Shown: positions 3,867 through 44,460 of the stretch, in pieces | Position numbering within the stretch: the stretch's first letter is position 1 | Layout: every line of letters begins with the position of its first letter | NCBI GenBank assembly: GCA_024642115.1 | Contig: JAHEBU010000003.1 | Coordinates: 124,001 to 188,000 of the forward strand | Length of the DNA: 64,000 nt | Origin: Marivivens sp. | Lineage (GTDB): Bacteria > Pseudomonadota > Alphaproteobacteria > Rhodobacterales > Rhodobacteraceae | Direction of reading: 5' to 3' | Position numbers and translations under genes: made by a program | Notes under the pieces: model-generated | Database searches by the model: none | What the model was told of the DNA's origin: nothing | Seen by the model: only the letters and a program-made list of their open reading frames with translations

Positions 3867-3927
3867 CGGTGGGTTTCACCCACCCTACGGATATTCCGGG
3901 CCGGCGTATGGTGGGTGAAACCCACCG
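3867..3927. repeat. Inverted pair of REP-like palindromes (rpoA-rplQ gap)
   Basis: Two copies of GGTGGGTTTCACCCACC plus a CTACG/ATACG tail face each other: 3867-3890 on the plus strand and 3904-3927 on the minus strand. Each is a 7-bp stem with a 3-nt loop. Same family as the elements near 8946, 9857, 14224, 17119, 35491, 36779, 37954 and 52013. Confidence 0.85.
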
Positions 3928-8662: not shown

Positions 8663-8904
8663 GTCGCTTCTCCTTTGGCCGGAACTGCCCCCCAGCGACG
8701 GGAGCGGGCAAACACGGCGTTTCATATGAGTCTGCCCCAAGAAGGAGCGGACTTGGGGCGTATAGTGGGTTGGTGAAGGTCGTGCAAGGGGGGTGTTGCA
8801 GCGGCGTTCACGCGTGAGCAGTCATCAATATATTGATTTTAAATGAAAATCAGAAAAAGATGAATTCCGGCCAGCAACCAGGCGTCGCCAATTTTCAAAT
8901 GCAG

Positions 8905-8930
8905 AACGCCCCCGGTTTCCCGAGGGCGTT
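8905..8930 (-). terminator. Terminator-like hairpin after rpmD
   Basis: AACGCCC / GGGCGTT arms with an inner CGG/CCG extension (one mismatch). The run downstream on the minus strand is only moderately T-rich (TTCTGCATTTG). It could act in either direction. Confidence 0.5.
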
Positions 8931-8945
8931 TCAGATTTCCGATAG

Positions 8946-11567: not shown

Positions 11568-12131
11568 TCACGAGTTGAAGGGCATGTTGAATTGCTTCAA
11601 CAGCGCCTTGGCTTCCGCGTCGGTTTTCGCGGTGGTGCAGATGACGATGTCCATTCCCCAGACTTCATCGACCTTGTCGAAGTTGATCTCGGGGAAAATG
11701 ATGTGTTCCTTGATGCCGGTGGCATAGTTGCCCCGACCGTCAAAGGATTTGCCCGACACGCCGCGGAAGTCGCGGATGCGGGGCATGGCCACGGTGATCA
11801 GACGGTCGAGGAATTCGTACATCCGGTCGCCGCGCAGGGTCACCTTGGCACCCAAGGGCATCTCTTCGCGGACCCGGAAGCCGGCGATGGATTTCTTGGC
11901 CTTGGTCACGACGGCCTTTTGACCGGCGATCGTGGTCAGGTCTTCCTGAGCCGACTTGGCCTTTTTGCTGTCACGGACAGCTTCGGCGCCACAGCCGATG
12001 TTCAGGACGATCTTTTCCAGACGCGGGATCTGCATGTCGTTCTTGTAGGCGAACTCTTCTTTCAGAGCGGCCCGGAAGGTCGACATATACTGCGCCTTGA
12101 GGCGGGGGGTATAGGTTGCGGTATCAAGCAT
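11568..12131 (-). CDS. rplE: 50S ribosomal protein L5
   Basis: L5, 187 aa, which binds 5S rRNA and contacts P-site tRNA. Family landmarks are [16 protein letters not shown] and the C-terminal segment [20 protein letters not shown]. The start ATG overlaps the rplX stop by one base (TGATG), so translation is probably coupled. Confidence 0.98.
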
Positions 12132-12436
12132 CAGATGGCCTCCCCTGTGGTCTTGGCGAAACGCACCTTGGCGTCGCCGTCCATGCGGAAGCCGACGCGG
12201 GTCGCCTTGCCGTTGCCGTCCACCAGAGCGAGGTTGCTCAGGTCGATGGGCATCGCCTTGGGCGTGCGGCCGCCCTGCTGGCTCTGGCTTTGCTTGAGGT
12301 GGCGGATCGCCATGTTGACGCCCTCAACCACGGCCTTGCCGGCCTTGGGGTCCACGGAGGCGATTTCGCCCTTGAGACCTTTGTCCTTGCCGGCGAGAAC
12401 GACGACCTTGTCGCCTTTGCGGAGTTTCGCAGCCAT
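12131..12436 (-). CDS. rplX: 50S ribosomal protein L24
   Basis: L24, 101 aa, an early assembly initiator of the large subunit, with an N-terminal KOW motif ([19 protein letters not shown]). The ATG at 12436 lies 7 nt after GGAGG; the GTG one codon upstream is unlikely. It shares one base with the rplN stop and one with the rplE start, forming a tightly coupled trio. Confidence 0.97.
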
Positions 12437-13101: not shown

Positions 13102-13311
13102 TTAGGCCTCCGACTTGGCGGCGTCGGCCGCTTTCTGGTTCAGGATCGTCAGGACGCGGGCGGCATTGCGGCGCGCCTTGCGGATCTGAGCGGTATTTTC
13201 GAGCTGGCCGGTGGCCTGCTGAAAGCGCAGGTTGAACTGCTCTTTCTTGAAGGTGACCAGATCCTCGCGGAGTTGGTCAGGGGTCTTGCCCCGAAGTTCG
13301 TTGGCGTTCAT
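13102..13311 (-). CDS. rpmC: 50S ribosomal protein L29
   Basis: L29, 69 aa, a two-helix protein at the peptide exit tunnel near the SRP and trigger-factor dock. [14 protein letters not shown] and [20 protein letters not shown] are family-typical. The ATG at 13311 has AAGGAAA upstream; the frame is open 15 codons further but without similarity. In most bacteria rpmC follows rplP directly; here an oxygenase gene, a terminator and over 1 kb intervene, so rpmC probably begins a new transcript. Confidence 0.96.
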
Positions 13312-13388
13312 GCCATTTCCTTTTTTCACATCACCGGAGGGCCCTGAATGGGTCACCCTGATTCCGGTGGAGGTCAGATGAAGGCTGG

Positions 13389-13417
13389 CTCATAGACGGG
13401 ATGGGCCTGTGGCGCAA
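13389..13417 (-). promoter_or_regulatory. Candidate sigma-70 promoter for rpmC-rpsQ-rplN
   Basis: On the minus strand TTGCGC (13412-13417) and TATGAG (13389-13394) are separated by 17 bp and lie about 78 bp upstream of rpmC. This is a moderate match, supported by the need for a promoter after the terminator beyond rplP. Confidence 0.35.
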
Positions 13418-13455
13418 CCCCCCTGCCCTGCATGGGCGGGATATTTGTTGAGAGT

Positions 13456-13478
13456 CTGGGTGAACCCCAGCCTACAGG
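13456..13478. repeat. Degenerate REP-like palindrome (oxygenase-rpmC gap)
   Basis: CTGGGT-ga-ACCCCAG followed by CCTACAGG: same architecture as the other elements, with a decayed stem. Confidence 0.55.
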
Positions 13479-13531
13479 GGTTAAGCGGCCCGGCGTGTCC
13501 GCCGTATGAGTCGTCTGATCGGTGGACTGTT

Positions 13532-14152
13532 TTAGCCCCAGCTGTAGTTGAAGCTGATGCTGATCCGGTCGTCTTCGGCCATGTTCATCGGGACCTCGTG
13601 GCGCAGCCAGCTTTCCCACAGCAGCACCTCGCCCGCATCGGGGGACAGGTAGATGAATTGCTTGAGCTCGTCGGGCGCCTTTTTCTTCCGGCCGGGGGCG
13701 GCCATCATCATCGGCAGGCGCGGGTCCTCGAACCGGATGGCGCTGGTGCCAGAGGGCATGGCGACGTAGGTCGTCCCCGAGATCACCGAATGGGGGTGGA
13801 TGTGCCCCGTGTGGATGCCCCCCTGCGGCAGAATGTTGATCCAGATATCCTCGAGTTTCAGTTTCTTGCCGTCGAGGTCAAAGGCCACGTCCTTGGCAAA
13901 GGCCGCGACGTGTTTGTCTAGCAGTTTGACCAGATCCTTGATGATCGGGCTGCGCCACGGCAGGTCAGTCAGCGAGGCGTAGCTGGTGTAGCCCGCATAG
14001 CCATTCTTTTCGCACCAGTCCTGCCCCGCCTCGTCATCCTCGGCGATGCCGAGGCAGGTGTTTTCCAATTCCTCAAGGTCCGGGGCCTTGCCCTGATCGG
14101 ACAGTTGCGCGCGGTAGAGGCGGGTGACGAAGAGGGAGGAGATTGTGGTCAT
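13532..14152 (-). CDS. 2-oxoglutarate/Fe(II)-dependent oxygenase-like protein embedded in the S10 cluster
   Basis: A 206-aa protein of the putative 2OG-Fe(II) oxygenase family (TIGR02466 / 2OG-FeII_Oxy_5 type). The double-stranded beta-helix core is visible: GGIHTGHIHPHS with H114, H117 and H119 as candidate iron ligands, IRFEDPR with D143, the distal histidine H185 in SWLRHEVPMN, and R196 in DRISISFN, the likely 2-oxoglutarate carboxylate anchor. There is no signal peptide, so it should act in the cytoplasm. The ATG at 14152 (MTTISSLFVTRLYRAQL) has only a weak ribosome-binding site. The gene lies between rplP and rpmC, after a strong bidirectional terminator. Substrate unknown; a ribosomal protein is my inference from location. 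Confidence 0.85.
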   Translation of the reverse strand: MTTISSLFVTRLYRAQLSDQGKAPDLEELENTCLGIAEDDEAGQDWCEKNGYAGYTSYASLTDLPWRSPIIKDLVKLLDKHVAAFAKDVAFDLDGKKLKLEDIWINILPQGGIHTGHIHPHSVISGTTYVAMPSGTSAIRFEDPRLPMMMAAPGRKKKAPDELKQFIYLSPDAGEVLLWESWLRHEVPMNMAEDDRISISFNYSWG

Positions 14153-14223: not shown

Positions 14224-14247
14224 CGGTGGGTTTCACCCACCCTACGG
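14224..14247. repeat. REP-like palindrome
   Basis: CGGTGGGTTTCACCCACCCTACGG in the gap between the oxygenase and the rplP terminator. The core is identical to the 3867 copy. Confidence 0.85.
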
Positions 14248-14271: not shown

Positions 14272-14307
14272 AAAAACCCCCGCCTGTTGAGGCGGGGGTT
14301 CGTTTTT
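14272..14307 (-). terminator. Strong bidirectional terminator between rplP and the oxygenase
   Basis: AACCCCCGCCT / AGGCGGGGGTT, an 11-bp perfect stem with a 4-nt loop, flanked by AAAAA and TTTTT so it works both ways. It lies 75 bp beyond the rplP stop and should end the rpsJ-to-rplP part of the S10 operon. Confidence 0.9.
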
Positions 14308-14381: not shown

Positions 14382-14795
14382 TTACCAGTCCTCTTTGACC
14401 ACCGTCCGGGTCTTGAGCGGGAGCTTCATCGCTGCAAGGCGCAGGGCCTCGCGGGCGACTTCTTCGCTCACGCCGTCGATTTCGAACATGATACGGCCGG
14501 GTTTGACCTTGGCCGCCCAGTAATCGACCGACCCCTTACCTTTACCCATCCGCACTTCGACGGGTTTGGAGGTCACGGCGGTATCCGGGAAAATCCGGAT
14601 CCAGACGCGGCCTTGCCGTTTCATGTGACGGGTCAGGGCGCGGCGGGCTGCCTCGATCTGACGGGCGGTCACACGCTCGGGCTGGGTGGCCTTGAGGCCG
14701 AACTGACCGAAGTTGAGGTCAGACCCGCCCTTGGCTTCGCCGTGGATCCGGCCCTTGTGGACCTTGCGGAACTTTGTGCGCTTTGGTTGCAGCAT
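14382..14795 (-). CDS. rplP: 50S ribosomal protein L16
   Basis: L16, 137 aa, at the A-site side of the peptidyl transferase centre. [19 protein letters not shown] and [19 protein letters not shown] are diagnostic; the RMGKGKG arginine corresponds to the region of E. coli L16 (Arg81) hydroxylated by the oxygenase YcfD/RoxA. It is the last gene before a strong terminator, with a 2OG oxygenase gene immediately beyond. Confidence 0.98.
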
Positions 14796-17044: not shown

Positions 17045-17118
17045 GCTTTCTGTCTTCCGTTTGCTTTGCGGGGGGTTATCCCCGTCTGTGATAAAGGGCC
17101 CCGAAGGTCCCAGGTAAT

Positions 17119-43800: not shown

Positions 43801-44460
43801 ATGATGCTGGCCATCGACCAGGTCCTCGGCCCGGACGAGGTGTCGGCGATCCGCGCGGCGATCCCCGGCCTGACATTCGGCGACGGGGCCGCCAGCGCGG
43901 GGAAATTCGCGCGCGAGGTCAAAGCCAACGATCAGGCCGCCCCCTCGCCCGCACTGGACGCAGTTCTGGGACAAGTCACCCAGGCACTTACGGCCAACCC
44001 GATTTTTGGCTTTGCCGCCCGTCCCCGGTTGATGACCCGGCTGATCCTGTCGCGATATCGGACAGGCCAGACCTATGGCCTGCATGTGGACGATGCGCTG
44101 ATGAACGGTGTGCGCACGGACCTGTCCTTTACCCTGTTTTTGTCCGATCCCGACACTTACGAAGGCGGCGCATTGGTGATCGAGGACACGTTTGAACAGC
44201 GGGCGGTCAAATTGCCTGCAGGCGACCTGATTCTCTATCCCTCGACCACCCTGCACCGGGTCGAGCCTGTCACGTCAGGCGAACGGCTGGCGGTGGTGGG
44301 CTGGGTGCAAAGTTGGGTGCGATCTGCCGATCAGCGCGAAATCCTGTTCGATCTGGAACGCAGCCTGCGCCAGGTGCACGAGGCAGAGGGGAAATCGGCC
44401 CTGTTCGATACCCTGGCCAAGACGCGGACGAACCTGCTGCGGCTGTGGGCTGCCGATTAA
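43801..44460 (+). CDS. piuC: PKHD-type 2OG-Fe(II) hydroxylase (PiuC/YbiX family)
   Basis: 219 aa. Iron ligands are H95-x-D97 (YGLHVDDAL) and H152 (STTLHRVEP), and R162 (SGERLAVVGW) fits the 2-oxoglutarate anchor. PiuC/YbiX proteins are iron-regulated in many Gram-negatives and often neighbour siderophore receptors; the substrate is unknown. It follows an exported protein gene by 2 bp, and its stop overlaps the convergent M48 protease stop by 4 nt. It is a second, unrelated 2OG oxygenase in this window. Confidence 0.92.
   Translation: MMLAIDQVLGPDEVSAIRAAIPGLTFGDGAASAGKFAREVKANDQAAPSPALDAVLGQVTQALTANPIFGFAARPRLMTRLILSRYRTGQTYGLHVDDALMNGVRTDLSFTLFLSDPDTYEGGALVIEDTFEQRAVKLPAGDLILYPSTTLHRVEPVTSGERLAVVGWVQSWVRSADQREILFDLERSLRQVHEAEGKSALFDTLAKTRTNLLRLWAAD

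Follow-up and report, generated by a model that had tools for sequence, protein, structure and literature searches.

A conserved, probably permissive rplP-rpmC boundary carries an uncharacterised 2OG-Fe(II)-type oxygenase gene in Rhodobacteraceae

The window analysed here, a 64,000-nucleotide stretch of a Marivivens sp. genome, carries a gene for a 2OG-Fe(II)-type oxygenase between the ribosomal protein genes rplP and rpmC. All three genes point in one direction, with rplP upstream and rpmC downstream. The open reading frame starts with an ATG at 14152 and encodes 206 aa on the minus strand, exactly the frame given in the preliminary description of this DNA, to which we add the strand. The features of the junction, in the order of transcription, are as follows.

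14382..14795, minus strand: rplP (ribosomal protein L16), the upstream neighbour.
14274..14301, minus strand: intrinsic terminator directly 3' of rplP, with a 12-bp GC-rich stem, a 4-nt loop and a T-rich tail.
14225..14241, strand not assigned: GGTGGGTTTCACCCACC palindrome, REP-like, between the terminator and the oxygenase gene.
13532..14152, minus strand: 2OG-Fe(II)-type oxygenase of the TIGR02466/PF13759 family, 206 aa, assigned from profile matches, the invariant residues H117/H119/H185/R196, a structure model and structure matches.
13312..13531, minus strand: spacer before rpmC, where the promoter of rpmC-rpsQ-rplN would be expected.
13102..13311, minus strand: rpmC (ribosomal protein L29), the downstream neighbour.

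The REP-like palindrome GGTGGGTNNNACCCACC occurs nine times in the window (at 3868, 3910, 8947, 14225, 17119, 35491, 36784, 37955 and 52013). An Rfam scan returned nothing besides the known leader near rplB, an L2-Alphaproteobacteria ribosomal protein leader at 17047-17112 on the minus strand (65.5 bits). No sigma-70 consensus promoter was found near the oxygenase gene or rpmC, a result that says little for alphaproteobacteria. Because a strong intrinsic terminator stands between rplP and the oxygenase gene, the latter appears from the sequence to lie between transcription units and not inside an operon. The earlier placement of the gene inside the S10 cluster is true by position, but the terminator sets it apart from the genes upstream.

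The oxygenase is a functional-looking, ordinary member of a known yet uncharacterised family. It matches TIGR02466 over model positions 2-200 of 201 (E=1.6e-82; 276 bits, cut-off 62.5), PF13759 (2OG-FeII_Oxy_5; E=2.2e-34; 118 bits, cut-off 27) and PDB entry 3BVC (E=6.8e-105), and orthologues 62-81% identical to it occur across the window's family, in most of its genera; a chance open reading frame is therefore not at issue. The genome holds a single copy. The solved structures 3BVC (Roseovarius nubinhibens ISM_01780) and 2RG4 (Oceanicola granulosus) are 70-74% identical to the window protein over the full length, share its fold and show no essential difference from it. They come from structural genomics and are both uncharacterised, and we found no functional study of TIGR02466, PF13759, 3BVC or 2RG4 in the open-access literature.

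The AlphaFold2 (AF2) model (pLDDT 86) is a double-stranded beta-helix. Foldseek matched it to 3BVC and 2RG4 with a TM of 0.93 and to many 2OG oxygenases. The solved folds next in similarity, behind these two orthologues, are those of PolD (a 2OG enzyme from Burkholderia) and of the PHD/P4H prolyl hydroxylases, among them PHD2 and the Pseudomonas putida P4H that acts on EF-Tu. These PHD/P4H enzymes are more distant (TM ~0.34-0.57, 10-19% identity) and have HxD where the window protein has HxH. Family and predicted fold, together with the solved orthologues, support the 2OG-type assignment that had first been made from the motif.

The predicted active site departs from the textbook arrangement. 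Canonical 2OG oxygenases use a metal triad HxD/E...H, with Asp or Glu as the second ligand; here the triad is replaced by HxH...H throughout the family, whose full pattern is HxH...H...R. All six residues previously proposed for the core (H114, H117, H119, D143, H185 and R196) are present in the window protein, but H114 and D143 vary in an alignment of distant bacterial and phage homologues, whereas H117, H119, H185 and R196 are invariant. Since only these four are invariant, the metal site is probably made of three histidines, H117, H119 and H185. R196 lies 11 residues after H185, close to the ~10 residues after the distal His at which the basic 2OG-binding residue is expected. In an hhalign comparison with a PKHD-type enzyme encoded in the same genome, H117/H119 fall on HxD with the distal His and the Arg in register, although at low probability. 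A PKHD-type 2OG oxygenase with canonical HxD (PF13640 plus PKHD_C) is encoded in the window at ~43801-44460 on the plus strand (L271:1255-1914).

How conserved is the placement between rplP and rpmC? Our survey of the window's family took in 200 genera, which, going by the named loci, comprise Yoonia, Sulfitobacter, Loktanella and their relatives; an orthologue is present in 131. In 97 genera, counted where both flanks were mapped, it occupies the rplP-rpmC interval, so the location is conserved across relatives in the gene-order comparison that the preliminary description had proposed. Two further genera have the gene next to rpmC, at an S10 junction that has been rearranged. At two loci (L158 and L270) a break between rplP and rpmC splits the S10 block, of which one half is inverted, with the oxygenase gene still near rpmC. 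In at least five genera the gene is elsewhere in the genome and rplP and rpmC have closed up to 97-331 bp.

The conserved place also looks permissive. Among the 97 intervals, the gene runs in the operon direction in 59 and is reversed in 38, mostly divergent from rpmC. Junctions scored as gene-less are short, with a median of 225 bp. In occupied junctions the median length beyond the oxygenase gene itself is ~1.6 kb, and this cargo is heterogeneous and mostly unrelated. A crude clustering of open reading frames yielded no clear conserved partner gene in the interval, the largest clear recurrent cluster being proteins of ~67 aa at 8 loci. A similar terminator after rplP is found at 78 of 97 gene-bearing junctions and at 22 of the 42 scored gene-less at S10, against ~0-1% in shuffled sequences. 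Together with the frequent inversion, it argues against co-transcription of the oxygenase gene with the S10 genes.

On the ribosomal tree, ~20 changes of orientation and 21 of presence are needed for the gene. The gene tree agrees with the ribosomal tree in part (rho 0.40), and nearest neighbours in the gene tree fall inside the ribosomal top five in 36 of 98 cases, where ~5 would be expected. The window's own nearest relative in the ribosomal-tree set (G195) lacks the oxygenase and has a 273-bp junction. One otherwise gene-less genus (G087) retains a 60-residue remnant on the minus strand, ~2.8 kb from rplP (L121, ~8757-8936), which suggests decay in place; since only a remnant is left, the oxygenase is dispensable in that genus. 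We found no published work dealing with the rplP-rpmC gap of Rhodobacter, or with modification of L16 there.

Outside the family the S10 setting was not seen. Within the flanks fetched, orthologues in other alphaproteobacterial families have no S10 genes beside them, and non-family orthologues have no neighbour gene in common. Phage 2OG-Fe(II) oxygenases of cyanophages and pelagiphages (PHROG 81) are homologous over most of the length at ~26-33% identity and share HxH...H...R; we found no function for them.

We propose that the oxygenase is a hydroxylase dependent on Fe(II) and 2-oxoglutarate, with a double-stranded beta-helix of the PHD/P4H kind, its gene inserted at a permissive, conserved boundary between rplP and rpmC, and that its substrate is not necessarily ribosomal (probability roughly 0.58). 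Iron would probably be bound by H117, H119 and H185 and 2-oxoglutarate by R196, and the enzyme would most likely hydroxylate side chains of proteins or peptides, a substrate class that need not include ribosomal proteins. On the genomic side, rplP would close one transcription unit at its terminator and rpmC would open the next; a gap at such a boundary would tolerate insertions in either direction. An ancestral insertion may have placed the gene in this tolerant junction. From then on it would have been inherited, with flips in orientation, losses and an occasional move to another place, and its transmission would in part have included the rplP flank. Three findings count against this reading: the gene stays in the rplP-rpmC interval despite many flips, amino-acid variation in L16 correlates with it above simulated phylogenetic traits, and residue S25 of L16 follows presence of the gene anywhere in the genome better than its presence at S10.

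We treat the correlation with L16 as a real lead rather than an established result. In 911 residue tests across eight ribosomal proteins, the three top sites by independent pairs were all in L16: H18, S25 and T79. Raw independent-pair scores at synonymous sites reach extremes like those of the L16 residue sites; because the raw scores for L16 are thus not decisive alone, we used phylogenetic regression calibrated against 1000 simulated traits that change at a similar tempo; the tree was built with FastTree from these ribosomal proteins themselves, and the scan covered only ribosomal genes. Mean |r| for L16 was 0.119 against 0.068 expected, none of the 1000 simulated traits was as high, and the calibrated family-wise p was 0 to 0.003, depending on lambda. 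The seven other proteins were near null, except at one L24 site, N75. This residue of L24 (rplX, 12131-12436, not adjacent to the oxygenase gene) has, with r 0.369, the second-strongest residue association after L16 S25. A distance-residual test also gave an excess for L16, but with comparable values for L24 and S14, and so does not discriminate. A second set of 12 proteins, partly independent in that it used other gene-bearing genomes but largely the same gene-less ones, again ranked L16 sites 79 and 18 at the top, and the flanking proteins S3 and L29 were not raised on average.

Part of this signal is linkage. Synonymous sites of L16 are also mildly raised (p ~0.003-0.013), which indicates that rplP and the oxygenase gene are partly co-inherited, and linked presence fits H18 and T79 better than presence anywhere in the genome. 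S25 behaves in the opposite way, with r 0.447 for presence anywhere and 0.354 for presence at S10, which pure linkage does not predict. Of 13 genomes in which the gene is off S10 or sits at a rearranged junction, 12 have S25; among the 42 scored gene-less at S10, a class that includes the genus with the remnant, 15 do. L16 variation in the family tracks the oxygenase beyond phylogeny, at least in part through linkage.

The strongest competitor to our reading makes the enzyme a ribosomal oxygenase of independent origin with L16 as its substrate; the hydroxylated site would perhaps lie in or near the R82 loop of the peptidyl transferase centre, and coevolution would keep the gene beside rplP. 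The preliminary description had raised such a ribosomal hydroxylase. A precedent exists in YcfD/RoxA, a JmjC-type ribosomal oxygenase (PF08007) whose target is R81 of L16. It belongs to the same 2OG-oxygenase superfamily, and the adjacency of the window gene to rplP suggests a putative shared target. The two are nonetheless of different subfamilies: the window protein has no PF08007 (JmjC_2) match, YcfD has the iron motif HxD...H in place of HxH, and nothing in the 206-aa single-domain protein corresponds to the dimerisation and winged-helix domains of YcfD. The window genome encodes no PF08007 protein, as would suit an enzyme with the same target, but strong PF08007 matches occur in six genera of the family and all six also carry the oxygenase. 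RoxA-type proteins thus co-occur with it, and the enzyme does not look like a simple replacement for RoxA.

The covariation gives the L16 reading its main support, most of all through the calibrated test, the repeat ranking of sites 79 and 18 and the behaviour of S25. In addition, R82 (R81 of E. coli), which YcfD hydroxylates in R. marinus (PMC5862935), comes three residues after site 79. Against it stand the raised synonymous sites, the better fit of H18 and T79 to linked presence and the lack of any L16 association outside the family, where S25 is absent and carriers and non-carriers are alike at site 25; R82 was present in 42 of 42 alphaproteobacterial L16s checked there, with or without the oxygenase. 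Elsewhere, moreover, the enzyme occurs without S10 linkage, and also in phages. What stands of the earlier proposal is the conserved placement and an L16 covariation that exceeds the phylogenetic null and is the strongest among the ribosomal proteins tested; the rplP terminator, the many changes of orientation, the partial linkage and the absence of both S10 linkage and L16 signal outside the family speak against it. We regard L16 hydroxylation as a tentative alternative, and another substrate combined with a permissive boundary as likelier than a genuine L16 link. The bolder form of the idea, that marine roseobacters have a second bacterial ribosomal oxygenase of separate evolutionary origin, a 2OG enzyme with three histidines that acts on L16 near the peptidyl transferase centre and coevolves with the L16 loop, is more doubtful still.

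Two other readings are improbable. The enzyme might hydroxylate a different translation factor, for instance EF-Tu, the target of the structurally similar P4H of Pseudomonas. With Foldseek, P4H of P. putida, its EF-Tu complex 4IW3 included, ranks among the characterised folds closest to the model; but the TM is only ~0.5 at 11-18% identity, many unrelated 2OG enzymes score alike, and HxH stands in place of HxD. Equally improbable is that the change from Asp/Glu to His marks a beta-helix protein with lost or altered oxygenase chemistry, serving another oxidation or a non-catalytic role: the invariance of HxH across bacteria and phages would suit it, but H185 and R196 are invariant too, which favours retained metal and 2OG binding.

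Together, the conserved rplP-rpmC placement and the L16 covariation make the idea of ribosome modification testable for an uncharacterised oxygenase family with two solved structures and phage relatives. If no ribosomal hydroxylation takes place, the placement would be accounted for by an insertion that the boundary between transcription units tolerates. If L16 or another ribosomal component is hydroxylated, the enzyme would represent a new control of translation linked to oxygen, iron and 2-oxoglutarate.
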